Positions 2,588-21,612 of a stretch of 21,612 bases of DNA are shown here, one piece after another. Origin of the DNA: a virus; IMG/VR virus record IMGVR_UViG_3300046837_000192, positions 1 through 21,612 of that record; one strand, written 5' to 3'. Each line of letters begins with the position of its first letter. The first letter of the stretch is position 1. A model generated the notes under the pieces. The model searched no databases. It saw only the letters and a list, made by a program, of their open reading frames with translations, and had not been told where the DNA came from. The translations under genes were made by a program, and so were the position numbers.

Positions 2588-2793
2588 ACAAGGACGGTTC
2601 TTATGAAGCCAAGTTCATCGGTGGCCCAGCAGATGATCATTGGGAACGCTTCGATGTATACGTCGAAGATGTGGTGCGACAAGGGGCGCGGTACCGCTTT
2701 ACTGGGTGGTCTCCGATGAAGGATGCGTTGCAACAGGTCTACGCCGTTTATGAGCCCCTCCGTCTTATCCTGCCTCCGGGAGTTTCACCGTGA
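2584..2793 (+). CDS. Small hypothetical tail-module protein (69 aa)
   Basis: Start chosen at ATG 2584, inside the ATGA overlap with the upstream stop. A longer in-frame start at 2494 would lie deep inside the upstream gene and is unlikely. The product (MNKDGSYEAKFIGGPADDHW...) is acidic and aromatic with no membrane segment. The segment FDVYVEDVVRQGARYRFTGW suggests a small beta-barrel-like fold. The gene ends with a GTGA overlap to the next gene, so translation of 1319-4759 is probably coupled throughout. Function unknown; a small virion or tail assembly component is the best guess from context. Confidence 0.65.
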   Translation: MNKDGSYEAKFIGGPADDHWERFDVYVEDVVRQGARYRFTGWSPMKDALQQVYAVYEPLRLILPPGVSP

Positions 2794-4193
2794 CCATTGA
2801 CTACAGGTTCTCTGCGCAGTCTGCGCTGGCAGCAGGAACCCAACTCACTACGGCGAACGCCCCACTTCCGGACCAGCCGAACTTGGTGACGGTACCCGCT
2901 GGGGGAGCGACTGCGACATTCGTTACTTCCGGTACAGCCCCTGGCACTAAAGCCCTGAAACTGACCAACATCACCGGGGCGGTCAACGTCTTCGGGTTCA
3001 CTGGTATGACCCCGGACCCGACGAACCCAAACAAGTTCACCTGCCGGTTCCTGGTGCTGTTCGAGACCATGCCGACTGCTGATTTCTCGTTCGTGCAAGT
3101 GGCCTCCTCCGGCGGCGGCACCAACCTGTTCAGCGCGCTGATCACATCTACCGGAGTTCTCAAACTGCTGATGCAGGTCGGTGCGCTGGATACAGTGTCG
3201 GCTCCGGCAACAGGTGCCAACATCCTGGTACTCAATACCTGGTACGACATTGAAATCGGGTTCGAGAACGTCACCACCACAACGGGAACCCTGTTCGCAA
3301 CGGTCCGAAACCTTGCCGGTACCACCCTGTCCTCAATCTCCACTGGAGCTGCGCAGAATAACGGCACCACGGTCCCCGGCACCTGGCGCGGTGGCAAGAT
3401 CACCACTTCCACCCAGTTCCCGAACGTCCAGTTCAAGTATCTGACGGCTCGGCAAGGCGCGTCCTCTGGGCTCGGGACGCCAGGTGGAAACACGCCTCCT
3501 GTTGTTCCGACCATTGCTCGTAAGGTGCAGGTCGCCGGAGCCACCACCTTCACCGCAGCTCCAACTGACGCTGAGGGTGACCCACTTACCTACTCCTGGG
3601 TGATCACCAAGCCGGACGGCACCACACTGTCCACCGGCATCACCGGAGCAACCACGGCCACCGTGACGATCGCTAACCAGACCACTCCTGGCACCTACAC
3701 GGTGGTAGTCACAGTCTCGGACGGTATCTCTTCTGTCTCTCAGACGACATACTTGCTGGTACAGCAGGTTTCCGGTGTCCCAGCCAAGCCGGACCGATTG
3801 ATCAGCAACGCCGGTGCCTGGGCCGCTGCCGGAGATGCAGCAACCCCACTTGCCGGTTTGATCGATCCGGACGGTTCGGGCTACGACATCTCCCCGGATG
3901 CCCCCGCTGGGAACTCGATCATCGTGCACATGGAAGCACCGGCATCCGGCCACGCTTCGGTGTCGTTCTTCATTCAGTGGGTGGACTCGGTCACTGGTCT
4001 CGGGGTCTCCGGCGCTACCGGCAACTTCACTGCTCAGGTGTTCCAGGGCACCACTGCACTGACCGCGCAGAAGATTTTCACCAACACCACCGCATCTGCG
4101 GTGCCGGTATCATTCGATTTTTCCACTGGGGAAGATGCTGCCCTAGCTGCGGATCTGACCGACATCCGGATTGAGATCACGGCAACTCAGTGA
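2790..4193 (+). CDS. Tail adhesin with LamG-like and PKD domains
   Basis: 467 residues, GTG start in a GTGA overlap. Residues about 25-222 look like a concanavalin/LamG-type beta sandwich: alternating strands and the signature stretch NTWYDIEIGFENVTTTTGTL, which matches the typical 'W-y-x-i-e-i' strand of such lectin-like folds. A Pro/Gly linker (223-238) leads to a PKD/Ig-like domain (about 239-325) with the telltale DAEGDPLTYSWVITKPDGTT and GTYTVVVTVSDG. Residues about 330-467 form a further beta-rich domain. Both domain types are common in phage tail fibres and bind carbohydrate or serve as spacers. No signal peptide, consistent with virion assembly in the cytoplasm. It overlaps the next gene by GTGA. 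Domain calls come from motif reading. Confidence 0.7.
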   Translation: MTIDYRFSAQSALAAGTQLTTANAPLPDQPNLVTVPAGGATATFVTSGTAPGTKALKLTNITGAVNVFGFTGMTPDPTNPNKFTCRFLVLFETMPTADFSFVQVASSGGGTNLFSALITSTGVLKLLMQVGALDTVSAPATGANILVLNTWYDIEIGFENVTTTTGTLFATVRNLAGTTLSSISTGAAQNNGTTVPGTWRGGKITTSTQFPNVQFKYLTARQGASSGLGTPGGNTPPVVPTIARKVQVAGATTFTAAPTDAEGDPLTYSWVITKPDGTTLSTGITGATTATVTIANQTTPGTYTVVVTVSDGISSVSQTTYLLVQQVSGVPAKPDRLISNAGAWAAAGDAATPLAGLIDPDGSGYDISPDAPAGNSIIVHMEAPASGHASVSFFIQWVDSVTGLGVSGATGNFTAQVFQGTTALTAQKIFTNTTASAVPVSFDFSTGEDAALAADLTDIRIEITATQ

Positions 4194-4759
4194 CCAACCG
4201 CGCGGTCGTCCACGGACTCCACCTCACGGGGTCGTCTACTACCCATGCGAAGATCTATGGCCTGAAACTCACCGGTTCTTCCACCAAGAAGGCCAAGGTC
4301 TATGGCCTGAAGATCACTGGCGGCGGAGTCAGCAAGAAGGCCAAGGTCTACGGACTTCGTCTCAACAATGGATTCACTGCTGGTGGAAACCCGTTGCGGG
4401 CCAAAGTGTATGGCCTCGGGTTGCTGGCCGGTACTCCGGTGGCTAATGCCGGTGGCGGACAGATCGTGGAGCCGTTGACGATGGTCACGATCACCGCGCT
4501 CGGAGCTACCGGAATCGGTACCTACTCCTGGGCGCAGGTGTCGAACGAAGCGCCCACTGTCACGCTGATCCCTACGGGTCCGAGTGTGCAGTTCACGGCA
4601 CCGGCCCGAGCAGCCGGTTGCGACGTCGTCATCCGGCTCACCGTGACGGCTGGTGCCAGCACCCTGACCGATGACGCCACCATCTCCGTCCGCCCCCAGT
4701 TGTCCTGGGTTGCGGTCAACGGTGTCTGGGTGCCACGACTGGACCATCCCACCGCGTAA
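4190..4759 (+). CDS. Repeat-containing tail protein with PKD-like domain
   Basis: 189 residues, GTG start in a GTGA overlap with the upstream adhesin. Residues 5-81 contain five copies of a short unit with the core A-K-[IV]-Y-G-L-x-[LI], beginning at residues 5 (degenerate), 20, 35, 51 and 71. The linkers grow in length and carry basic residues. Residues about 83-178 form a PKD/Ig-like domain: ANAGGGQIVEPLTMVTITA, the central YSWAQVSNEAPTVTL, and a terminal strand DDATISVRP, close to the pattern of PKD domains in surface proteins. The extreme C-terminus (SWVAVNGVWVPRLDHPTA) is aromatic. Probably a tail-tip decoration or adhesin. The repeat block is unlike its neighbours and has no function I can name. 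Confidence 0.65.
   Translation: MTNRAVVHGLHLTGSSTTHAKIYGLKLTGSSTKKAKVYGLKITGGGVSKKAKVYGLRLNNGFTAGGNPLRAKVYGLGLLAGTPVANAGGGQIVEPLTMVTITALGATGIGTYSWAQVSNEAPTVTLIPTGPSVQFTAPARAAGCDVVIRLTVTAGASTLTDDATISVRPQLSWVAVNGVWVPRLDHPTA
4202..4432 (+). repeat. Five-copy AKxYGLxL protein repeat
   Basis: The array codes for five units spaced 15, 15, 16 and 20 residues apart. At the DNA level an 18-base block, caagaaggccaaggtcta, is identical at 4285-4302 and 4333-4350 (48-base pitch), suggesting recent duplication. The first copy (AVVHGLHLTG) is diverged. Confidence 0.8.
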
Positions 4760-5445: not shown

Positions 5446-5466
5446 AGGTACAGGAGTGTGCACCTA

Positions 5467-5796
5467 ATGCCGGTCAATACCGGGTTCATCCAGATGTCGA
5501 ACGATCTGGTCACCATCTTGGTCTACTACGACGCCGCCGCACCCTTGGGGGAACAACCGTTGATCAACGGCCCGCGTGGGTTCTGCTTGGATATGACGAA
5601 TCTATCCGGTAAGAACGCGAGGATCACCCTTACCCGGCCGGATGGTCAGCTGGTCCCGGTTACGGTCGGTCAGGGTGATCCTGTGACAGGTGGCCCGGCG
5701 GCAGGTAGGTCCCGAACGGTTGCGCAGGTCAATGCACTGGGGTTCACCCTGCGGACGGACATACCGACGATCACGCTCAACCCTGACGACGCGTAG
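5467..5796 (+). CDS. Small hypothetical structural protein (109 aa)
   Basis: Start placed at ATG 5467, which has AGGAG at 5452-5456 with a 10-base spacer. The in-frame GTG at 5458 would sit only one base after that site and is less likely. The product (MPVNTGFIQMSNDLVTILVYYD...) is beta-rich, with a Gly/Pro turn and a segment KNARITLTRPDGQLVPVTVGQGD. No membrane segment or enzyme motif. It lies between two tail-type genes with a 3-base gap to the next. Probably a small tail decoration protein; no family recognised. Confidence 0.6.
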   Translation: MPVNTGFIQMSNDLVTILVYYDAAAPLGEQPLINGPRGFCLDMTNLSGKNARITLTRPDGQLVPVTVGQGDPVTGGPAAGRSRTVAQVNALGFTLRTDIPTITLNPDDA

Positions 5797-6502: not shown

Positions 6503-6940
6503 ATGACTTCGTATACGGCGTCACACTTGACGAGCGCTGGGTCTACGACGTTGCCGATTTCGTCATTGTACGGGGCGGCAACGGATCGGATGGCATTGAT
6601 GTCGTTGTCAGTGTTCAACACAACGGCAACTGCCGTGTCGTTAAAACTGGTTCGCGTGACGACGGCAGGAACGCAAGGCACCGCACAGTCCCGCATGCCA
6701 TTGGATGCCGCTGATGCAGCGTCGAACGGGATCGTGTACACAACTCACACGGTAGCTCCAACCATCACCAGCGGTGACCTTTACCGGTTCCTTCTGGGTG
6801 CATCCATCGGGTCCGGTGTGGTGCTGTCATTCCAGGCCAACCCCATCATCATCCCCGCAACAGCGAACAACGGGCTCGCCCTTGTAGTGTCCACCGGCAC
6901 CGGACAGATTTGCGAAGTAACTTGGGGCTGGTCTGAGTAA
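6503..6940 (+). CDS. Small beta-rich structural protein (145 aa)
   Basis: ATG at 6503 with a strong AAGGAG site six bases upstream, better than its neighbours, consistent with a protein needed in quantity. The product (MTSYTASHLTSAGSTTLPIS...) is Ser/Thr/Ala-rich, without charged clusters or membrane segments, and contains alternating hydrophobic strands (LSVFNTTATAVSLKLVRV, GVVLSFQANPIIIPATANNGLALVV) ending in an aromatic tip ICEVTWGWSE. This layout fits a small beta-sandwich decoration protein. No catalytic motif and no named family recognised. Placed between two tail-type genes. Confidence 0.6.
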   Translation: MTSYTASHLTSAGSTTLPISSLYGAATDRMALMSLSVFNTTATAVSLKLVRVTTAGTQGTAQSRMPLDAADAASNGIVYTTHTVAPTITSGDLYRFLLGASIGSGVVLSFQANPIIIPATANNGLALVVSTGTGQICEVTWGWSE

Positions 6941-6975: not shown

Positions 6976-9651
6976 ATGGCAGTTCTGGTTCGTTACACCG
7001 CCCCTTATCTGCCAACTTCACAGCAGGTTCCTAGCCAGATCGTTACCCCTTCCATCACCACGAGGGTCACGGGTCTTACTGGTGCCGGGAACATCACCAC
7101 CTCGTTCGTCACCGGCTCCCTGACCTGTTCTATCGCACCTCCGGCGAATGCCAGCATCGGTGACCTGCTCGTCTTTGCGGTCGGGTTCCAGACCCAGGTT
7201 GGCACGATCACCCCATTCACCACTCCTGCCGGGCCAGTGCGGATGGGCCCGAACTACGACCTCACCGGGGATACCAACCGCCGACCGTCCGGCTTGTACT
7301 ACGTCCCGATCCCGGACGCCGCTGCATTGGCGGCTCTGCCTGCAACGTGGGCTTGGGAATCGGGATCCACTTCCGGTCGGATCGTGGTGTCCTGCCAGCG
7401 AGTGACTGGAGCGGACTTGTCTGCTCCAGTGGACAGTTACGGTGCTTGGAAAACACCATCTGGAACGACGGCAGATTCTCAGGCGCTTCCTTCGGTCACG
7501 GTTGCCACGGACAACTGTCTGTTGTACGGATTCGGCAGTCTTAATGCTGCTGCAGTGGTTACTCCGGTGACATCATCCTGGTCTGCTGGTACAGAAGTAG
7601 TCGATCTTCCTACCAATTCGTCAGGATCATCAGTCTCTTCATCTGTATTGACCGTCTTCAATCAACCAGTAAACACAGGAGTGACCAGCACTCGTACCAT
7701 CACGTTCTCACCCACCGGAGCGGTATCTAACTTCGGTGGCTACATGGTGGCGATCAAGGCTGCCGGAGGTGGCGTAGAGGTCACCGCCACCGTCCCGTTG
7801 GACGGCGGCAGCGATCTGAGTATTACTGCTGTAGACACGGTGCTGCCGTCTTTAGGCTTCGCCGGAGTTGGCACCCTGGCAGTTGCAGGAACAGAGACGG
7901 TCCTACCGGCCGTTCCGCTTGCGGGTTCCGGTTCCCTTACGGTTACTCCTCTCCTCACGCACCCTGTGTCTTTGTCCTTTGCCGGTGCCGGAGCACTGGC
8001 AGTTACCGGCGCGGGCACCCTGAGCAGCTCTCTTGCGCTGGCCGGAGCTGGCGGGCTGGCTGTGTCGGCCACGGTGGTGCGGTCCGCATCCCTGCCCTTG
8101 ACCGGTGCGGGCACGCTGGCCGTAGCCGGGACGCAAACGATCTCTAGTTCCGCCACCCTTGCGGGCGGCGGAACCCTGACCGTTGCGCCGTCCCAGGTAC
8201 TCCTGCCGGTCCTGGCGCTGGCAGGCACCGGAACCCTCACAGTGTCCGGCACGGACGTCATCTCTGCAGCGGTCACCCTGGTCGGGACCAGTACCTGCAC
8301 GGTGAGCGCGGACACCGTGCGCACCGGGGCCATTCCGTTGGCCGGTACCGGGGCGCTCGCGGTCTCCGGGGTTCAGACAATCTCCAGCACCGTGTTTCTG
8401 ACAGGTACTGGAACGCTGGCCGTTACTGCCACGGTGCTCCGTACCGGGGCTCTGACCCTGGCAGGGGCGGGCACCCTCACGGTGTCGGCAGCTACCTCAG
8501 TCACCGCGTCCGTCACCTTCACAGGGGCTGGAGTCCTGGCGGTCACCGGCACCAAGATCATTTCTGGTACCCCGGCCTTCGCCGGAACCGGCAGCTTCAC
8601 CGTCTCCACCACCGGCGGCGGTACCGCATCCCTGATCTTTGCAGGGGCAGGGGTACTGAGCATCACCGGCACGGACACGATCTCCAGTTCTCCCACGTTC
8701 TCCAGCACCGGCACCCTGACCATCACCGCAGCAGTACGGATGATCCCGGGCTCACCGACTTTTGCCGGTGCCGGGACACTGTCCGTTACCGGTCAGGTAC
8801 TCAGCTCCACGGTGGTCCCGCTTGACGGCACCGGAACCCTGACTGTCACAGCTACCACCAGTGGCAGCACCATACTGTCGTTCGATGGTTCCGGATCTCT
8901 GACAATCACTGCACTGAAACTAGTTTCAGTGTCCTACACTCTTTCCGGGACTGGAACCTGCACTGCCACAGCAATTGTCGTACATGCATACACGGTCTCA
9001 CTCTCGGGCTCCGGTGTGCTGTCCGTGGGAGCTACAGTCGGGACACCGGGTGTAATAACCCTTTCTGGCAGCGGGACGCTGTCTATCACGCCGTCGATTA
9101 CTCGGTTTGCGTCCCCCACCCTTTCAGGGTCGGGGACGCTCAGCATCATCGCCAGCGTGGTCGGACAGGCAACCACCGCGTCCGTCACTCTGGCCGGTTC
9201 CGGGACTTTGAGCATTTCCGGGGTGCTCACCCACTTCGCCACGCTTGCACTCCAGGGTTCGGAGTTCTTCTTCCTGGCAGGAACTGTCTCCAAGACAGCC
9301 CAAGTGCAGCTCCCCGGTGCTGGTGGCATGCAGGTCATCCCCACCCGCGTACTCACATCTTCGGTGCAACTGTCCGGTGCCGGTGCCATCAGCATCACCC
9401 CGGCCACCATCACGGTCCTGCGCGCAACCCTGGTACTGGCAGGTGTCGGGAACCTGTTCATTGAGATCGGGCAAACCCCGGGGCACATCACCATCGGACC
9501 ACCACACCGGAAGCCGGTTCAGCTCACTGGAACTGGTTCCGGCGTGATCACGGTGGGGACACCCCGGCATGCTACTCCACGAACAGTGAGCAGAGGCAGG
9601 GAAAGAATCACTCTTTCAGGTCCGGACAAATCGGGTATTCGTCTCGGATAA
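6976..9651 (+). CDS. Giant repeat tail/stalk protein, 28 x 20-residue repeats
   Basis: 891 residues, ATG 6976 behind a GGGGGTG site. Residues about 1-270 form a beta-rich domain that parallels the free protein at 5800. From residue 275 the protein is a tandem array of 28 units of 20 residues, with the core [LF]-[ATSD]-G-[ASTG]-G-[TSAV]-L-[TSA]-[VI]. Units 16, 23 and 27 carry small insertions (21, 23 and 22 residues), and units 25 and 28 are diverged. The regular hydrophobic/Gly pattern suggests a beta-solenoid or beta-prism stalk. The end (residues about 841-891) is basic and Gly/Pro/Arg-rich, unlike the array. No signal peptide, LPXTG or membrane segment, so a virion fibre is likelier than a secreted adhesin. 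It is the last long gene of the tail module. Confidence 0.75.
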   Translation: MAVLVRYTAPYLPTSQQVPSQIVTPSITTRVTGLTGAGNITTSFVTGSLTCSIAPPANASIGDLLVFAVGFQTQVGTITPFTTPAGPVRMGPNYDLTGDTNRRPSGLYYVPIPDAAALAALPATWAWESGSTSGRIVVSCQRVTGADLSAPVDSYGAWKTPSGTTADSQALPSVTVATDNCLLYGFGSLNAAAVVTPVTSSWSAGTEVVDLPTNSSGSSVSSSVLTVFNQPVNTGVTSTRTITFSPTGAVSNFGGYMVAIKAAGGGVEVTATVPLDGGSDLSITAVDTVLPSLGFAGVGTLAVAGTETVLPAVPLAGSGSLTVTPLLTHPVSLSFAGAGALAVTGAGTLSSSLALAGAGGLAVSATVVRSASLPLTGAGTLAVAGTQTISSSATLAGGGTLTVAPSQVLLPVLALAGTGTLTVSGTDVISAAVTLVGTSTCTVSADTVRTGAIPLAGTGALAVSGVQTISSTVFLTGTGTLAVTATVLRTGALTLAGAGTLTVSAATSVTASVTFTGAGVLAVTGTKIISGTPAFAGTGSFTVSTTGGGTASLIFAGAGVLSITGTDTISSSPTFSSTGTLTITAAVRMIPGSPTFAGAGTLSVTGQVLSSTVVPLDGTGTLTVTATTSGSTILSFDGSGSLTITALKLVSVSYTLSGTGTCTATAIVVHAYTVSLSGSGVLSVGATVGTPGVITLSGSGTLSITPSITRFASPTLSGSGTLSIIASVVGQATTASVTLAGSGTLSISGVLTHFATLALQGSEFFFLAGTVSKTAQVQLPGAGGMQVIPTRVLTSSVQLSGAGAISITPATITVLRATLVLAGVGNLFIEIGQTPGHITIGPPHRKPVQLTGTGSGVITVGTPRHATPRTVSRGRERITLSGPDKSGIRLG
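7798..9495 (+). repeat. 28-unit tandem repeat, ~60-bp / 20-aa period
   Basis: Unit boundaries taken at the conserved [LF]xGxG position give 25 units of exactly 20 residues, plus three with small insertions. The DNA copies are diverged (different codons for the same residues), so the array is held by protein-level selection rather than being freshly amplified. A degenerate 29th copy (LTGTGSGVITV) may follow at about 9520. Confidence 0.85.
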
Positions 9652-9659
9652 TCCCAAGT

Positions 9660-9815
9660 ATGGAAAAGCCAATCCCACTGTTCACTGAAGACCGACCCTC
9701 GTATGAGACTCAGGTCAACCAGTCCATGTCCCGCCACCCCGCCGGGAAGAAGTTGACACCAGCTCCGGAGATCAAGCCGAAGCCGGTGAACAATCCCCGT
9801 CGGGTACATACATAG
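9660..9815 (+). CDS. Possible small protein (51 aa), convergent overlap
   Basis: An open frame begins at ATG 9660, eight bases after the stop of the repeat protein, and encodes MEKPIPLFTEDRPSYETQVN and a Lys/Pro-rich tail (KPKPVNNPRRVHT). Third codon positions are G/C-biased as in real genes here. Against it: no clear ribosome binding site, and its last 44 bases overlap the end of the leftward gene at 9772-10041. It may be the last gene of the tail transcript. No family recognised. Confidence 0.4.
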   Translation: MEKPIPLFTEDRPSYETQVNQSMSRHPAGKKLTPAPEIKPKPVNNPRRVHT

Positions 9816-10041
9816 CCCGCAGCTCCGCCGGATCCTCCCATTCGTCATTGACCTTCACCGTGGCAGCGAACTGTCCAGCCGGACGGAACGCTGCCCGGTC
9901 CCCGCGCCGGATCCGGTATGCCGTCTGTGCGTACTTGTGCCGCTCATCTACCGGTCCGGCCGCAATGGCATACCACTGCCCAGGGTTCGCCTTCAGTTGA
10001 GTCACGACGGCAGCGTCCGGCTCAGCTAGGAGTCTCCTCAT
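9772..10041 (-). CDS. Small hypothetical protein (89 aa)
   Basis: Last gene of the leftward replication cluster, 12 bases after the SNF2 gene stop. It has ATG at 10041 but a weak ribosome binding site, so coupling to the helicase is likely. The product has NPGQWYAIAAGP, then a basic stretch YAQTAYRIRRGDRAAFRPAGQFAATV, then an acidic WEDPAELRAMYV. The order 'PGQWY...A..IR.G...AFRPAG.FEA' recurs, as I recall, in small proteins of actinophage DNA modules, where the basic centre would suit nucleic acid binding. No enzyme motif. Function unknown. Confidence 0.6.
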   Translation of the reverse strand: MRRLLAEPDAAVVTQLKANPGQWYAIAAGPVDERHKYAQTAYRIRRGDRAAFRPAGQFAATVKVNDEWEDPAELRAMYVPDGDCSPASA

Positions 10042-10053
10042 GACTGGACAATA

Positions 10054-12111
10054 TCAGGCACCGAACAGCTCCCTGAGTTTGTCCCGGTCGTGAACGATCG
10101 ACTCCAACCGCTCATCGTTCTGGGTCATCCGGTCCAACTGCTTCACCTCAATGGTCCCGGCGACCACGAGATCCCGGTAGGTGATCGCCGCGTGTCGCTC
10201 CGAACCGATCCGGTGGAACCTGTCGATCCCCTGAGCGTTCAGGATCGGGGACCAGGACCGCTCGAACACCACCACCGTGCTGGCAGCTGTCAACGTGATA
10301 CCCGTGCCACCGGCCGCATACGTCAACAGCACCACCCTCCGCTTCCCGGACTGGAAGTCGTTGATGTCCTCGGACCGCCGCTTCTGCGGAACATCCCCGG
10401 CGATGATGGACACCGTGTCCGGACGGATCAGCCCCTCCCCGTACAGGGCGTCCTCACACATCCGCAGAGCCTTCCGGGAGTTGAACAGCACCGCGAGCTG
10501 CTCCCCCTCCCACTCCCCGTCCTTCCACATCTGGACCAGTGCGTCCACCTTCACGGACGGCATCTTCAGACCCAGCTCACCGTCCTGGCCGATGGGGTAG
10601 CCAGTACCGGAGGCCAGCATGGACAGCCGCCCGGCCTGCACCAGGACGTTCTGCGCGGTGATCTCGCCCTCGTCCACCATGGCCAGCATCTCGGCTTTCA
10701 TCTCGTGGTAGACGCGGTACTGCGCACTGCTGCGGGACATCGTCAGGCGTTCCTCCAGGGAACCCCAGCGCAGCTGCGGCGGAAGGTCCAGCACCTGCTC
10801 CTTCAGCACGCGGCGGGTGACGGCCGACCAGGTACTGCGGAACTCAGCCTCACGCTTCTCCTGCAGACCCTGCCACTCCAGGAACCCGTAGTTGTTGTAG
10901 CCCTTGACGCAGTGCCACTCCACCCACTTGGACCGCAGTGGCCACGCCACAGGGTCCAGGAAGTGCAAGATGGACCACACCTGCTCCACCTTCGTGGCGA
11001 TCGGAGTTCCGGTCGCGGCCCACCGGAGCGGGTTCGAGGGTGAGTAGTGAGCGATCCCGTTGAGTGACATGGAAGTCTGGGATTGGTGGTTCAGCACGCG
11101 GTGCGCTTCGTCCGCGATAATCACGGACCACTCGATCTCGTTGAGTTCCTTCATGTGCGTCTGGCACTGGGCGATGGTCAGCTCGGAGATCTTCTTGAAG
11201 ACCAGGGTGTGTTCCGCCAGGTCCCAGGCAGCCTGCAGTCCGAACTGCCGGATCGGTCCGCGCCATTCGCAATCCGGGAATTTGCAGTACGCCCGGAAGG
11301 ATCTCCCATCTACAGCGATCCGAACATCTTCGTGGTAGTGCAGGTCCGGCATCGGGTTGCCCTTGTCATCCACGTTCCCCTGGCATGTCAGCCGGGGCCC
11401 ACCGCAGGCCACGCAGCGCTTCAGTGCGTGGCCGGGCATGGCCTCCAGCCTGGTGCTGGTGCGGAGGTTCGAGTAGCCGATGATGGCGACGTCGTAGAGG
11501 CCCTCCTTAATCGCAGCTACGGTCTTCCGCCGCTGGGTCGGGGTGCCAGTGATCTCCACCGTTCGCAGCTCCGGAGCGAACCGCTCCAAACTCTGGGACC
11601 AGCCGGTGGTCATCACGGACTCCGGGCAGATCACCAGGGCCGGTCCCTTGGCAGTGAGGTTCCCCTTCTGGATCGCGTGGATGAACGTGTTTGTCTTGCC
11701 GGACCCGGTCTGGTCCAACAGAGCGCGTCCTGTGGTCTCCGTGGACAGCAGCAACCAGTCCGCCCCGGTGATCTGATGCGGGTAGTAGGACAGGCCCTCT
11801 TCCTTCTCCAGATCGGAACCGAGGTAGCCAGCTGCATCCCGCAGCGTCTTCCACTCCTGCTGGTTGCGCCGGTACCAGGCCAGCACCTCTTCATCCGGAG
11901 ACAGGGTGAACCCGTACTTCGTGGCCACCGCACCGAGCGCGAGCGCGGCTGGCCACGCCTTCGGCACCGTGCACGTCCGGGCGTGCGCGGCCCACTTGTA
12001 CCCCGGGATCTCCTTGATCACGTCGTGGTAGGTGGGCGGCACGTCCACCGCGATGTGCCCGGCTAGCCTCCGGTCCAGACCGTCCGGAAGGAACGAGAGT
12101 TCCATCTTCAT
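10054..12111 (-). CDS. SNF2-family DNA helicase/translocase with Cys-rich insert
   Basis: 685 residues. Start ATG at 12111, which shares its A with the upstream stop (TAATG) and has an AAGGATGGAAG purine run before it; a far upstream TTG-type start is not needed. N-terminal 60 residues (LPDGLDRRLAGHIAV...GYKWAAHARTCTVP) resemble the HARP-like module of SMARCAL1-type helicases. Helicase motifs: Walker A DQTGSGKT (133-140), motif Ia LVICPESV, motif II DEAH (334-337), motif III WAATGTP (364-370), motif VI QGIDRFHRIG (627-636) with arginine fingers. Between Ia and II is an insert with C233, C236, C243, C276 and C281, a possible zinc site. Likely role: remodelling forks or recombination intermediates beside the resolvase and Sak4 proteins. 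Confidence 0.88.
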   Translation of the reverse strand: MKMELSFLPDGLDRRLAGHIAVDVPPTYHDVIKEIPGYKWAAHARTCTVPKAWPAALALGAVATKYGFTLSPDEEVLAWYRRNQQEWKTLRDAAGYLGSDLEKEEGLSYYPHQITGADWLLLSTETTGRALLDQTGSGKTNTFIHAIQKGNLTAKGPALVICPESVMTTGWSQSLERFAPELRTVEITGTPTQRRKTVAAIKEGLYDVAIIGYSNLRTSTRLEAMPGHALKRCVACGGPRLTCQGNVDDKGNPMPDLHYHEDVRIAVDGRSFRAYCKFPDCEWRGPIRQFGLQAAWDLAEHTLVFKKISELTIAQCQTHMKELNEIEWSVIIADEAHRVLNHQSQTSMSLNGIAHYSPSNPLRWAATGTPIATKVEQVWSILHFLDPVAWPLRSKWVEWHCVKGYNNYGFLEWQGLQEKREAEFRSTWSAVTRRVLKEQVLDLPPQLRWGSLEERLTMSRSSAQYRVYHEMKAEMLAMVDEGEITAQNVLVQAGRLSMLASGTGYPIGQDGELGLKMPSVKVDALVQMWKDGEWEGEQLAVLFNSRKALRMCEDALYGEGLIRPDTVSIIAGDVPQKRRSEDINDFQSGKRRVVLLTYAAGGTGITLTAASTVVVFERSWSPILNAQGIDRFHRIGSERHAAITYRDLVVAGTIEVKQLDRMTQNDERLESIVHDRDKLRELFGA

Positions 12112-12584
12112 TATGTCTTCCATCCTTCCCAGACGTGTGCCGTCCAGTGCAGTGCGTGGCGAAGAGCCATCAGTGCGTGGCCGTGGCCACCCTTGCCGAC
12201 TCCGGCGTCCCGGTAGGGAGCGATTTTGGTGTCCGTGCCCCACTGGTTCGCGTCCGAGGCCCGGGTCTTGTTGTAGAAATGCTCGGGACGCCAGATGTAC
12301 TCCAGCGTTCCGATGATGTAGATGACATCCGGCTGCCAAGTCTTGTTGAAATCAGCCGGGTAGAAGTACTCACAGATGCAGTGCTCCACCCCATTGTCGT
12401 GCATCTGCTGTGCCATGTCAAGGAACTCCAGGCGTTCGGTGATCTCCCACCAGTCCAGCACCTGGATCTTGAACCGCTCCAGCGGCTCGAACAGCACAGC
12501 ACCCGTGGCACCGCCCTTGCCCTGCGCCTCGCGCCGGACACTGGAGCTGGTCCCGCCGGGGTCTACACTGAGTACCCTCACCAC
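12111..12584 (-). CDS. RuvC-like Holliday junction resolvase
   Basis: 157 residues with an RNase H-like fold pattern. The first strand VLSVDPGGT holds a catalytic Asp (D8), the strand ICEYF holds Glu72, and the C-terminal helix GHGHALMALRHALHW carries H134, H136 and H143. In this family that helix usually reads HAxDAxRH; here the Asp position is Met139, so metal binding may rely on the histidines. GTG at 12584 has GAGGG seven bases upstream; GTG at 12581 (GTGA overlap with the upstream stop) is equally possible and shortens the protein by one residue. It would cut branched junctions made by Sak4-driven recombination and clear DNA before packaging. Overlaps both neighbours. Confidence 0.78.
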   Translation of the reverse strand: MVRVLSVDPGGTSSSVRREAQGKGGATGAVLFEPLERFKIQVLDWWEITERLEFLDMAQQMHDNGVEHCICEYFYPADFNKTWQPDVIYIIGTLEYIWRPEHFYNKTRASDANQWGTDTKIAPYRDAGVGKGGHGHALMALRHALHWTAHVWEGWKT

Positions 12585-13183
12585 GCCGCTGCCCTCAGAT
12601 GCCGTACGAGTGGAACAAGGTCTGCCAGAGCGCTGTCGTTGTTGATCACCTGATCTGGTTCGATCTTGTCCAGTTCACTTTCACTGGCGTGCAACCCAGC
12701 AACACACCCGGAGCGCTGCACCCGCCATACATATCCACCTAGCTCCCGCACGAACGCGGCCTCGTTCAGGAACCGCATGTCCGAGACGCAGACGTCATAT
12801 CCTTGCTTCAGCCACACCTTTGTGCGCTTGTACCAGGTCTCTGGCCAGATGTTCTCCCCGAAGATGTTGCGTCCGGCTTCCGTCCCGCCGATCTGCAGGA
12901 GACGCCGGATCTCGGGGTACTTCTCTTTGGCTTCGTCCCACCCGTCTTCGGCAATGATCTCTCTGAGGCGGACCACCTCCACATGCTTGTTTCCCTCGAA
13001 GTAGTCCGGCCCACCTCCATCGAACTCGGTACGAATGATGGCGTGAATGATCGGGTTCAGGATGTACATCTGCTCCTTCAGAGCGTCCGCCATCCCTGTG
13101 ATCTTGAATCCGTACTCCTGCTCCAGCACGTTGCATACAGCGTTCTTGCCAGAGTTCTTATATCCGGTTACCGCAATCAGCAT
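12578..13183 (-). CDS. Deoxynucleoside monophosphate kinase (T4 gp1-like)
   Basis: 201 residues. An N-terminal P-loop GYKNSGKN (7-14), followed by FKITGMADALKEQMY, and a late SDMRFLNEA with VWRVQR match the layout of phage dNMP kinases: P-loop, substrate-binding helix, then the D-x-R-[FY] strand and basic lid. They phosphorylate dNMPs to dNDPs, supplying the polymerase encoded next to it. The residue after the P-loop lysine is Asn14 instead of the usual Ser/Thr/Asp. ATG 13183 has an AGAGG site six bases upstream. The gene follows the polymerase by 44 bases and overlaps the resolvase start. Confidence 0.78.
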   Translation of the reverse strand: MLIAVTGYKNSGKNAVCNVLEQEYGFKITGMADALKEQMYILNPIIHAIIRTEFDGGGPDYFEGNKHVEVVRLREIIAEDGWDEAKEKYPEIRRLLQIGGTEAGRNIFGENIWPETWYKRTKVWLKQGYDVCVSDMRFLNEAAFVRELGGYVWRVQRSGCVAGLHASESELDKIEPDQVINNDSALADLVPLVRHLRAAAW

Positions 13184-13227
13184 TATGACCTCTTCTTGTA
13201 GTATGTGAGCTAGGTGCTTACTTATAT

Positions 13228-15030
13228 CTACTTCAATTCCGCCCAGTTGTCCCCGATGTTGGCCTTGGCGCGAATCGCCACGCCGTGTTCAGCCGGATCG
13301 ATCTGGCTGTTCATGATCTCTTCGATTTCCATGGCTGCGTCTTTCGCTTCATCACGGGGCACGGAGAAGATCAGTTCGTCGTGCACCGCCAGCCGAAGGT
13401 TGTCCCCCAGGCCAGCCGCCTTACAGCCGATCGCGGAGTCCTTCAGGATGGTCGCAGCCCAACCTTGGCCACACCAGTTGGGGAGCACCCGCTTGTCCTT
13501 CCATTCCCGCACCCGGAACCGGCGTCCGTTGGGGGTCCAGGCTTCGAAGATGCCGTCTGCGGTCTTGGTGACCATGGACTGCCCGGCGTCCTTGAAACTG
13601 GGGTACCGGTCCTTCAGCGCGTTGATGGTTGGCTGCACCTGTTCCAGTGGCAGACCGGCGGTCTCCGCGATGGTCATGTCCCCACCGGCGTAAATGGTGG
13701 CGTACGCGGTGTTCTTGATCGGTCCGCGCCGGGGGTCGGACTTTTTGAAGTCGGGCTCGTTGTAGAGATCCTTGGCCATCAGCACGAAGAAGTCCTGGCC
13801 GGTACGATCGGCCTCGTTGAACATGTCCTTCAGGAGCTGATCATTGTTCATGATCGCCCAGGTTCTCATCTCTATTTGTCCGAAATCAGCACCGATGAGC
13901 ACATGATCCGGATTGTCCGGAATGAACGCCCGCCGCGCGGTGTGGTCATTGGACGGCATCTGCTGCAGCGGAGGGTTGGACACCGACATGCGGGACGTCT
14001 TTGCAGCCATGGACCAGATGCTGGGGTGGATGACCTGTGGGGACATCTCTCCACCGATCAGCCCGAGAATCTTCTCCAGGTAGTCCTTCCGCATGCGCTG
14101 CACGAACATGTACTTCAGCCGCAGCTCCGCCAGAGGGTGCTTGTTCCCGACCTGGATCATCTGTTTCTTGTCAATTGAGATCTGACCGCCATCGGTCAGC
14201 CGCTTCTCATCCAACACACCTGCCTGATGCAGGATGCGGAGAACCTCGGTGCGCTTGTTCGGATCTCCCCAGCCCATTGCCATGCTCTCCTTCAGGAGAG
14301 CATCTTCTTCCTCCGCGAGCCGCATGATCTCGGTGGCCAGGTACTCACCGTCCACCATCATCCCGGTGCGGGACATCTGGTTGGTGATCACTGATGTCGC
14401 GATCTCCATGTCATGGTGAGCGGCGAACTGCTTACGCCACGGCTCCCAGCGCTCGTACAGCATGCTGGTGCCGACGACGTCCACCACGCCGTACATCGGG
14501 TAGGGCTTCCACCCCATCGGGATGTCGGTCCAGGTCCAACCGGCGTTCTTCATGCCGGTGTGCAGGATGTCTTCTCCCACCGATGCCCACGGCCCGAACT
14601 CCCTGCGCAGCAACGTCTTCAGCTTGCGGGACTCCCCGGCGAATCCACCGATCCCTGCGGTGATCTGGGTGTCGTGCATACAGGTGGGGTCGATGACGAT
14701 CCCCTCCTGCCAGAGCGCGGACGCGTCGTAACCGAACCCGTTGTGCCAGACATGGGTGGTGCGTGATTGGGAGACCCAGTCGAACGAGCCCTTGACCAGT
14801 CCCTTCCACTCCTGGAACGGGATGGCCCAACCGCCCTGTGCGTCACCGAACTGCATCATCCGGACGTGGAACCCTGGTCGGTAGATTTCCAGCTCATGCC
14901 CACCGGGCACGGATCCGGTTTCGATGTCGCACGCCACATAGCCCTGCGGGCGGTGGGTGAGCCACTCCCAGAACTGCGAGACCTTGTCGGGATGGTCCAG
15001 CACTCGGATTGAGAACTTAGGGACTTCCAT
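13228..15030 (-). CDS. Family A DNA polymerase with 3'-5' exonuclease
   Basis: 600 residues, ATG 15030 with a GAAAGG site. Exonuclease motifs: CDIETG with D35 and E37, HNGFGYDASAL, and YGVVDVVG carrying Tyr/Asp of Exo III, so proofreading looks intact. Polymerase motifs: TSRMSVSNPPLQQMP, motif A GADFGQIEMR (D382), motif B (O helix) RRGPIKNTAYATIYAGG (R434-G450, K439), motif C AVHDELIFSVP (D551). No 5'-nuclease domain, as in many phage enzymes. The residue equal to E. coli Phe762 is Tyr443. This is the phage replicase or repair polymerase, working with the nearby SSB-like protein, dNMP kinase and recombination proteins. No primase is seen in the window. Confidence 0.93.
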   Translation of the reverse strand: MEVPKFSIRVLDHPDKVSQFWEWLTHRPQGYVACDIETGSVPGGHELEIYRPGFHVRMMQFGDAQGGWAIPFQEWKGLVKGSFDWVSQSRTTHVWHNGFGYDASALWQEGIVIDPTCMHDTQITAGIGGFAGESRKLKTLLRREFGPWASVGEDILHTGMKNAGWTWTDIPMGWKPYPMYGVVDVVGTSMLYERWEPWRKQFAAHHDMEIATSVITNQMSRTGMMVDGEYLATEIMRLAEEEDALLKESMAMGWGDPNKRTEVLRILHQAGVLDEKRLTDGGQISIDKKQMIQVGNKHPLAELRLKYMFVQRMRKDYLEKILGLIGGEMSPQVIHPSIWSMAAKTSRMSVSNPPLQQMPSNDHTARRAFIPDNPDHVLIGADFGQIEMRTWAIMNNDQLLKDMFNEADRTGQDFFVLMAKDLYNEPDFKKSDPRRGPIKNTAYATIYAGGDMTIAETAGLPLEQVQPTINALKDRYPSFKDAGQSMVTKTADGIFEAWTPNGRRFRVREWKDKRVLPNWCGQGWAATILKDSAIGCKAAGLGDNLRLAVHDELIFSVPRDEAKDAAMEIEEIMNSQIDPAEHGVAIRAKANIGDNWAELK

Positions 15031-15053
15031 TGCAACCTTTCTCAGGAGACGAA

Positions 15054-15087
15054 ACAGCCCGCCCCTGCCGGAGCAAGAGCGGGCTGT
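15054..15087 (-). promoter_or_regulatory. 9-bp stem-loop between SSB-like and polymerase genes
   Basis: ACAGCCCGC (15054-15062) pairs perfectly with GCGGGCTGT (15079-15087) around a 16-base loop, inside the 72-base gap between the SSB-like gene and the polymerase start. On the leftward transcript only TTTCGTC follows, so it is a weak terminator at best. It could instead attenuate, stabilise or separate the two messages so that polymerase is made in smaller amounts. Confidence 0.4.
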
Positions 15088-15102
15088 GCCGCAGGGACGG
15101 AC

Positions 15103-15717
15103 TCAGGAGTCCTGGGATCCCCAGGGATCGTCGTCAACCGCCGTGGGCGTCCCGGCCGGTGCGCCGACCGACTCCAGCTGTGAAGCCGGTTCCGCTCCGT
15201 TGTCGCCGTCGTCCACGTACTTCGGGAGGGTGTTCTGCGACGGAGCTGCTGTGGTCCCCGGTGCTGACGCACCGCCCCCCTTCAGGTTCGGGTTGACGAT
15301 CAGCTTGGTGAGCTGGGTCTTGGCCCGCTCCACCTCCTGGTAGGTCTCGTGCTTGATCTTCGCGGTGATCTGCGCGTTGACCATCTTGGCCGCGATGACC
15401 TTCTGCGTCCAGCCCTCGTCCCGGACCATGCCGGAGGTGATGCCCAGCGTCTTCAGCTGCCGCCAGAAGAACTCGATCCCGGACTGCTTCTGGGTCGAGT
15501 AGTAGATGTTGTGGATCACGGACTTGCCCCGGTATGGGCCGTCGATGATCTCCAGCTGCAGGTTGATGCTGGGGTTGCCGTTGGAAGACACACCCGTGGT
15601 CGCGCCCTTCACCACCCAGTTGTACTCATCTTCGGGCAGCAGTGCGCTGCCGGTCTGGATGTCGTCCATGTTCGCAAGCTCGCCTGCGAAATCGAAATCG
15701 CTGTCCTGATCGACCAT
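15103..15717 (-). CDS. Single-strand DNA-binding-like protein (DUF669 type)
   Basis: 204 residues, ATG 15717 in a TAATG overlap with the Sak4 gene, with AAGGAG upstream. The N-terminal 130 residues have the DUF669 layout: an acidic opening (DFDFAGELANMDD), GSALLPEDEYNWVVKGA, LQLEIIDGPYRGKSVIHNIYY, FFWRQLKTLG, then AQITAKIKHETYQEVERAKTQ. The C-terminal third is Gly/Ala/Pro/Ser-rich and ends in an acidic tip, DDDPWGSQDS, like the protein-docking tails of bacterial SSBs. DUF669 proteins sit beside recombinases in many phages and are thought to bind ssDNA. Its position between the Sak4-like ATPase and the polymerase fits that. The SSB function is inferred, not shown by a catalytic motif. Confidence 0.72.
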   Translation of the reverse strand: MVDQDSDFDFAGELANMDDIQTGSALLPEDEYNWVVKGATTGVSSNGNPSINLQLEIIDGPYRGKSVIHNIYYSTQKQSGIEFFWRQLKTLGITSGMVRDEGWTQKVIAAKMVNAQITAKIKHETYQEVERAKTQLTKLIVNPNLKGGGASAPGTTAAPSQNTLPKYVDDGDNGAEPASQLESVGAPAGTPTAVDDDPWGSQDS

Positions 15718-16583
15718 TACTTCAGTACTCCTTGCTCAACTTTGACCACCGGAGGCACGGTCGTGTCCGGTGTTGGTGCTGGCTTGGGCATGGAGCCCAA
15801 ACTCATTGCGAACGCAGCCCGAATCAGTTGGCGCACAGTGGTGTTCGCCTTGCTGATCTCTTCCAGGCTGTCCCCGGTGATGACGTCCAACTCCAGAGGG
15901 TTCGGAACCCGACCGGCAATCCGGCTGCCTGCCGTGAACTTCACACCTGCGTTGTTGGACGGTTCGGTGTACAGCTCGCGGATGGTGACCCATCCGCCTC
16001 TGTTCACTTCCCTCTTGATCAGGAAAGCGTTGACATCGAACAGGTAGGGGAGCACAGACTTCATCTGGCCCTGCAGATATGGCTCCCACTTCTTGGTCTC
16101 GTCGTTGAACTTCGACATCGATGTCACCACGACCGATGCGAACGGGCGCTCAGGGTGCTTGGTGAGATCCCGGATCTCGCCGCAGAGGCTTCGCATGTAC
16201 CTCAGCGCGGTGCCCCAGTCCTGCAGCTTGACCTGGTTCAGCCCCGCGATGTCTTCGATGCACTTGTTCTGCAGCTCCGAGATCGAGTCCAGGGAAAGGC
16301 TTTTGAACGGATGCGGACGTGACTGCAGGGCTTTGATGGTGTCCGTCGCATCCTTCCAGGTGTCGATGTTGACGACGGCGGTGTCCCAGGTTCCGTCTTC
16401 AACCGGCGGCGGTGTCCGAGGATCCCAGTACACCGCGTTGATCGGCAGGAAGTGCGCTGCAGATTCGACGTCCATCAGTAGCCGGGGCGTAGCCCCGGAT
16501 ACTCCGATCATGGACTTCCCGGCCTTGCTCTCACCATGCACGAGGATGGAGAGGGACTTGCGGAGTTTTTGTGGCTGCGCCAC
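15717..16583 (-). CDS. Sak4-like RecA-type recombinase ATPase
   Basis: 288 residues, GTG start at 16583 with GAAGG nine bases before. Walker A GESKAGKS is at 17-24, close to the N-terminus as in Sak4 proteins. A Walker B-like strand SLSLDSISE follows near residue 95-103. The rest has a RecA/Rad51 core-like pattern (AAA_24 family): RPFASVVVTSMSKF, then a C-terminal TAGSRIAGRVPNPL. The last 35 residues are Pro/Thr-rich and disordered-looking. Sak4 proteins pair single strands, often with an SSB partner, and here the DUF669-like gene overlaps its stop codon. Together with the upstream Cas4-type nuclease this makes a resection and annealing set. Confidence 0.78.
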   Translation of the reverse strand: MAQPQKLRKSLSILVHGESKAGKSMIGVSGATPRLLMDVESAAHFLPINAVYWDPRTPPPVEDGTWDTAVVNIDTWKDATDTIKALQSRPHPFKSLSLDSISELQNKCIEDIAGLNQVKLQDWGTALRYMRSLCGEIRDLTKHPERPFASVVVTSMSKFNDETKKWEPYLQGQMKSVLPYLFDVNAFLIKREVNRGGWVTIRELYTEPSNNAGVKFTAGSRIAGRVPNPLELDVITGDSLEEISKANTTVRQLIRAAFAMSLGSMPKPAPTPDTTVPPVVKVEQGVLK

Positions 16584-16722
16584 GGAGGTGAACCTTCTTT
16601 CACTGGCGGTAACTGGATACTCACGCTCAGTGGGCTTACATACGCTCCCTCCTTTCGCAGGGGGAACAGAGCCGTGGCTCCGGGGTGAAGGGTGTGGGGT
16701 GAAGTTGAGTAGATCTACAATA
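16584..16722 (-). other. 139-bp intergenic region with stacked small elements
   Basis: The longest gap inside the leftward cluster. It contains a perfect palindrome GTAGATCTAC (16709-16718), a 9-base direct repeat GGGGTGAAG on the + strand at 16682-16690 and 16696-16704, an inverted repeat GAGCC/GGCTC (16669-16680), and, on the - strand, an unusually strong AAAGGAGGGAG site (16645-16655) facing a start-stop pair ATG-TAA (16636-16641). No good -35/-10 pair was seen. It may be a leader region that limits Sak4 expression or the relic of a lost small gene. Confidence 0.4.
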
Positions 16723-21136: not shown

Positions 21137-21612
21137 CTACGAGGGGCCCAGGCGGAGCACCTGGCCGACGTTGATCGAGTTGGGGTCCGTGATGTTGTTC
21201 CAGGCTTGTAGGTCAGCAACAGACTTACCGGTCTTGGCGGCGATGCCGGACAAGGTATCCCCAGAGACCACGGTGTAGGTAGCTACCGGAGCCGGAACGG
21301 GAAAGGTCCCGCCACTGGAGGGCACACCTGCTGCCTGGTTCTTGCGGACCTGGACTTCGATGAAATCGATCAGATTCTGTTCCGACACGGGAGCCTGCCC
21401 ATGCGGGGTGTCGATCAGATGGGCCGCCGTGTAAAAGAAATACTCGGCTTCCGTCTCGACCTTGTCGAAGTAGTTCGGCCCGTAGACGTAGTCCACCCCC
21501 TGCTTGTTACGCATGACTTTGAGCATGTCCTCATCCTCTTCGGTAGGTGCAGATGGAGTTGTTGGGATAGTAGGAGGTGCAATACCTCCGGCCAGGTTCC
21601 GTCTGGCCAGGG
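21137..21612 (-). CDS. LysM cell-wall-binding protein, 5' end outside window
   Basis: The reading frame is open to the right edge: before the internal ATG at 21526 it encodes a Pro/Thr-rich linker (GGIAPPTIPTTPSAPTEEDED), so the gene probably begins outside the window and this is its C-terminal part (158 residues visible). After ATG 21526 comes a compact segment MLKVMRNKQGVDYVYGPNYF ... YFFYTAAHLI, then FIEVQVRKN, a Pro/Ala linker, and a LysM domain YTVVSGDTLSGIAAKTGKSV ... GQVLRL at the end. LysM binds peptidoglycan. Likely a larger endolysin whose catalytic part is off the right edge. If ATG 21526 were the real start it would have a GAGG site and be 129 residues. Confidence 0.7.
   Translation of the reverse strand, partial: LARRNLAGGIAPPTIPTTPSAPTEEDEDMLKVMRNKQGVDYVYGPNYFDKVETEAEYFFYTAAHLIDTPHGQAPVSEQNLIDFIEVQVRKNQAAGVPSSGGTFPVPAPVATYTVVSGDTLSGIAAKTGKSVADLQAWNNITDPNSINVGQVLRLGPS

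Follow-up and report, generated by a model that had tools for sequence, protein, structure and literature searches.

A candidate length-variable beta-solenoid stalk of DUF2807-type coils in a modular phage protein

What structure is formed by 28 tandem units of about 20 residues in a single viral protein, and what could such a structure do for the virus? This question is raised by one gene in IMG/VR record IMGVR_UViG_3300046837_000192, of which we analyzed a stretch of 21,612 nucleotides (hereafter the window). An initial annotation made from the sequence alone read the array as a new kind of beta-solenoid stalk in which copy number sets fiber length. Our analysis leads us to think it fairly probable that the protein is a virion adhesin of a tailed phage, with a folded head on a solenoid of 28 DUF2807/Toastrack-type coils that is varied by coil insertions and deletions and by swaps of head and stalk. 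The phage host is probably an actinobacterium. The features discussed here are collected in Table 1.

Table 1. Coordinates of the repeat-protein gene, its parts and its neighbors in the window.
Feature	Position	Strand	Description
Small neighbor gene	5458..5796	+	Homologue near the equivalent repeat-protein gene of L074 (47% identity, E 4e-28)
Gene directly upstream	6503..6940	+	Homologue directly upstream of the L074 repeat-protein gene too (47% identity, E 2e-30)
Full ORF	6976..9651	+	891 aa: N-terminal module, 28-unit array and C-terminal tail
N-terminal module	7063..7779	+	Residues ~30-268; mobile domain of ~230 aa
Repeat array	7798..9495	+	Residues 275-840; 28 units of ~20 residues, core [LF]xGxGx[L]x[VI]
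Units 1-17	7798..8820	+	40-residue (two-unit) super-repeat strongest here; lag-2 p=0.0014
C-terminal tail	9496..9648	+	Residues 841-891
Adjoining genes (helicase-like, DNA polymerase I)	9803..16630		81.2% nucleotide identity to L073 over 6.9 kb

The array is strongly periodic. Counting again with a relaxed core recovers the 28 units that had been placed in the protein, and an identical protein (100% in the best segment, residues 1-891) is present on a second IMG/VR contig. Self-identity of the array lies 15, 16 and 12 standard deviations above that of shuffled sequences at lags of 20, 40 and 60 residues, respectively. The strict period claimed at the outset holds as far as the dominant spacing is concerned, which is 20 residues in 24 of 27 intervals (the other three are 21, 23 and 22), but the strict core [LF]xGxGx[LF]x[VI] fits only 21 of the 28 units. 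Units also resemble each other at a 40-residue period: across all units, similarity in the variable columns at a lag of two units gave p=0.0002 against unit-order shuffles, compared with p=0.08 for adjacent units. Hydrophobic residues occupy 47% of odd unit positions and 16% of even ones, Thr and Ser occupy 54% of even positions and 7.5% of odd ones, and 21 of the 566 residues are charged. A GHIT[IV]G motif is found in the end of the array and in the tail, and at the same end of a relative, L058.

Mean identity between units is 32% for amino acids and 45% for nucleotides, and Tandem Repeats Finder did not detect the 60-bp array in the window DNA. Where two units have the same amino acid they share the codon in 31.6% of cases, close to the 31.2% expected from codon usage alone, so that synonymous sites are saturated and the protein pattern alone is conserved. 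These data bear out the earlier claim that the DNA copies have diverged in codon use while the protein shape is selected. With units this diverged and codon matches at expectation, the repeat is old and maintained at the protein level.

To the structure prediction that the initial annotation had proposed for the array as a monomer, AF2 runs on two separate regions with alignments of natural segments gave a confident all-beta answer: residues 345-514 (model 1) with a pLDDT of 90.7 and a pTM of 0.83, and residues 586-715 (model 2) with a pLDDT of 81.7 and a pTM of 0.72. Because AF2 is reported to yield confident false beta-solenoids from repeats (PMC11795689), we take the array to be a regular all-beta repeat that is most likely a solenoid. 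Foldseek searches of both models against the PDB returned no match at E<=0.001, and by this comparison neither model qualified as a DUF2807 fold match. No DUF2807 structure was among the best 50 matches of model 1, whose nearest neighbor was the C-terminal beta-helix of tapirin (6n2b and 6n2c; E 0.03-0.04, TM 0.3-0.4, not significant), while the list for model 2 includes 3pet, 4ygu, 3lyc, 3ljy and 4opw at E 0.25-2.7. Tapirin, which is likewise a beta-helix, is a surface adhesin. Among viral models the best TM-scores, 0.6-0.7, were to uncharacterized phage proteins at E-values that are not significant.

Sequence profiles lead to one known family, DUF2807 (Pfam PF10988, the "head GIN domain" or Toastrack beta-helix). 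The window protein scores 31.5 bits on the Pfam profile, over its curated cut-off of 24.2, and L051 and L058 score 54-56 bits. A phmmer search of the window protein against the PDB gave a single match, 3jx8 (E 4e-4). We also built a phage repeat profile from 29 eight-unit segments of the window and its relatives; against all PDB sequences it matched 3jx8, 4opw, 3lyc, 3ljy and 3pet at E 1e-8 to 1e-3. All five matches below E=0.1 are of the DUF2807 type, the next being OspA at 0.12, and other beta-helix families gave none below E=0.1. Shuffled sequences never attained these scores. The DUF2807/Toastrack fold is a single-stranded beta-helix preceded by an N-terminal seven-stranded intertwined region (PMC11237479). 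Solved DUF2807 fragments with clear motifs have a spacing of 18-21 residues, and the 28 array units show the family's coil of ~20 residues with a hydrophobic-x-G-x-G-x-hydrophobic-x-hydrophobic core. With DUF2807 over the Pfam cut-off and every PDB match of the profile below E=0.1 belonging to this type, the claim of a new kind of beta-solenoid is not supported; what survives of the proposed stalk is its regular all-beta, probably solenoid character in what the relatives indicate is a virion protein.

There are also clear differences from the bacterial proteins. DUF2807 structures have chains of ~220-250 residues and the bacterial pattern matches listed are mostly 240-300 residues long, whereas phage arrays reach 33 units. 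The phage arrays are rich in Ala, Thr and Ser and almost chargeless, and the bacterial GSGD is mostly GxGT in the window array. The phage arrays stand behind unrelated modules, and Pfam DUF2807 alignments begin at profile position 31 in the window protein and at 56 or later in the relatives.

It is quite possible that the likeness to DUF2807 is convergence, with a hydrophobic-x-G-x-G-x-hydrophobic motif every 20 residues sufficing to produce it and the phage arrays representing an independent beta-solenoid. Against Pfam DUF2807 the window array reaches 43.2 bits when reversed, more than in the forward direction, and we have dropped the Pfam match as proof of homology for this reason. The phage profile likewise scores four of the five PDB DUF2807 fragments higher when reversed, and the Foldseek result also fits convergence. 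That a reversed copy matches as well is a further difference between the phage arrays and the solved DUF2807 proteins. A directional profile argues against it. Built from half of the bacterial pattern matches, this profile separated the two directions in 33 of 33 held-out proteins; it gives the window protein 119.6 bits forward and 82.6 reversed and favors the forward direction in 14 of 18 phage proteins and the reversed one in 4 (sign test p=0.015, the sequences being non-independent). The absence of other beta-helix families from the PDB matches below E=0.1, and the mostly DUF2807-like proteins among the bacterial-genome matches listed for the DNA pattern described below, also speak against convergence. 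Since the reversed copy passes the cut-off and Foldseek gave no significant match, common descent is unproven, and we describe the coil as DUF2807 type by its pattern and do not assign the protein to the family. A match to a known repeat family had been named in advance as the observation that would count against the initial reading; the DUF2807 match comes close to this, with the reversed control leaving membership unproven. Agreement between Pfam and AF2 on such repeats calls for reversed-sequence controls.

Other regular repeats extend virion appendages, including collagen-like GXY repeats, the triple beta-helix of the T4 gp5 spike (PMC4576200) and Ig-like/PKD domains, but their periods and motifs are unlike the 20-residue unit. 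Unlike these known phage stalk repeats, the unit would form its coil without a trimer.

How widespread is this coil among viruses? A tblastn search of phage records with the whole protein found no match, probably owing to the low-complexity filter, and we therefore searched instead with a DNA pattern spanning three consecutive units. This pattern identified 56 stretches in IMG/VR and, after removal of simple repeats, ~38 viral contigs with arrays of 3-33 units, mostly of 20-residue period. Pfam DUF2807 matches 9 of 15 such array records, 5 of them over the cut-off. In genomes, the matches listed for the same pattern are often from Bacteroidota and Sphingomonadales. The wider search for the unit that had been suggested also reached an isolate: gp27 of Microbacterium phage Magritte (OR553905.1, "hypothetical protein") carries ~11 units behind a GDPD domain. 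Its units have the same core as those of the window and lie 20 or 22 residues apart; it differs in having fewer units, a different head and a gene between the capsid and tail-terminator genes. In two short proteins, L037:1610-2119 and L009:8588-9172, 4-5 units precede a C-terminal domain of the Dit type, which in L037 exceeds the Pfam cut-off; both proteins match PHROG 31951, a family without an assigned function. In the open-licence PMC literature we found no paper tying DUF2807 or Toastrack to phage virions.

The place of the protein in the particle had to be inferred from relatives, because the genes beside it in the window have no convincing PHROG match and the window is truncated on the left; the left genes gave no matches to phage records or to relatives. 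In L074 the repeat gene has a head gene on one side and, on the other, the genes for the major capsid, major tail and connector proteins. The array gene adjoins a capsid gene in L045, is downstream of one in L038 and L021, is flanked by the major tail protein and head-tail adaptor genes in L050 and stands downstream of the tape measure gene in L029, and the L037 protein joins four units to its Dit domain. A virion location is well supported by this gene order. A tail location is unproven since array genes in the relatives are often among head or connector genes, and a competing idea, which we hold only tentatively and which is compatible with a solenoid stalk, is that the protein is a capsid (head) fiber or decoration, with one end on the head and the array projecting an adhesive module toward cells or glycans. 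The capsid-side positions in L074, L045, L038, L021 and Magritte are what this idea would predict. The L037 fusion to a domain of the distal tail protein (Dit) and the gene positions in L050 and L029 are at odds with it, and where a protein sits in the particle cannot be read from gene order alone.

Elsewhere in the window, the 467-aa product of positions 2790-4193 contains a PKD domain that passes the Pfam cut-off, and its gene directly precedes another PKD-like gene; it is possible that these two encode further adhesion proteins. A 189-aa protein (4190-4759) has four to five short KVYGL[KR]LTG-type repeats followed by a K319L-like_PKD match just under the cut-off, and a 129-aa ORF on the minus strand (21137-21526) has, as read by eye, a LysM-like end (TYTVVSGDTLSGIAAKTGKSVADLQAWNNI).

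The N-terminal module is exchanged between proteins of different kinds. That of the window is 28-36% identical to modules on a Samistivirus hydrolase and on proteins of L067, L069 and L072, where its partners are the hydrolase, a GDPD-like enzyme, a large protein and PKD-like repeats, respectively. A shared origin with the N-terminal modules of L031, L025 and L038 was not supported by hhalign, the window module being related instead to those of Samistivirus, L066-L069 and L072, and kinship of the protein's N-terminal part with window gene 5800 had no BLASTP support. The heads that precede arrays in relatives include GDSL lipase, GDPD and SPRY domains. Stalks may be exchanged as well: in L074:7867-11775 the GDSL module is 80% identical to that of L058 (best segment), and a different ~20-residue repeat (ATVTTAGVVGRSSAA-like) stands where L058 has GxG coils, which suggests that the stalk was replaced behind a kept GDSL module. 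Judged by this pattern of swapped heads and stalks, the repeat protein is a hypervariable, modular surface protein.

Copy number varies among relatives, a comparison that the initial annotation had proposed, and in one close pair it does so by whole units: between L051 and L040, whose flanks are 83-90% identical in DNA, the array indels are exactly 60 and 20 residues, or three units and one. The idea of a ruler, in which coil number sets length, fits these whole-coil indels. In the closest relative of the window, L058/L073, the repeat protein counts 33 units and its head, unlike that of the window protein, contains a GDSL lipase; blastn found no similarity between the window and the L058 repeat-protein DNA. 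Unit-by-unit orthology of the two arrays was rejected, the alignment being no better than with the units in random order (40 of 500 shuffles), so that gained or lost units are indistinguishable there. The 81% identity between the window and L073 ends just past the repeat gene, which places this gene at a hypervariable boundary between related phages.

In the model we favor, the N-terminal module would fold into a head, and the 28 coils would stack into a rigid beta-solenoid that carries it. One unit would supply one coil: a hydrophobic residue followed by a GxG turn, then a strand whose L and V point inward and whose Thr and Ser point outward, and finally a return strand. Beta-strands are generally spaced 0.48 nm apart, and the predicted stalk would measure ~13 nm at 28 coils (28 x 0.48 nm) and ~16 nm at 33. 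Whole coils would be gained or lost, and recombination would swap the head or the whole stalk. Contact with the host, or with glycans of its envelope, would be made by the head or by the stalk surface. For the repeat protein we infer a solenoid fold, a role as a stalk and contact with the host; it probably serves in attachment, as a stalk that is modular and variable in length.

It is less likely that the array is itself a binding surface, in which outer faces of Thr and Ser bind glycan, cell wall, mucus or ice and added coils add sites. Regular ladders of Thr and Ser at the outward (even) positions and the near absence of charge would suit such a role, as would the description of a P. gingivalis DUF2807 protein as an adhesin (PMC10949514), but many arrays bear separate enzymatic or other folded modules, as expected of a carrier. 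Although the false solenoids that AF2 builds from random repeats and the lack of a clear Foldseek match would allow for a low-complexity chain without a regular fold and artefactual models, we consider this very improbable given the strict in/out alternation and near absence of charge in units only 32% identical, the same unit pattern in solved beta-helices and the same all-beta pattern from two different regions.

One coil type recurs across dozens of diverse viral contigs and is nearly invisible to PHROGs. We see about an even chance that these arrays define a class of phage virion appendage that is widespread and has gone unannotated: a single-chain beta-helix of DUF2807-like coils would act as a stalk of adjustable length (3-33 coils), carry enzymatic or binding heads that can be exchanged, and differ between close relatives by whole coils. 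Appendage length and head swapping help to shape which cells a phage can reach. The L051/L040 and window/L058 pairs and Magritte provide natural material for comparing copy number, particle geometry and adsorption.
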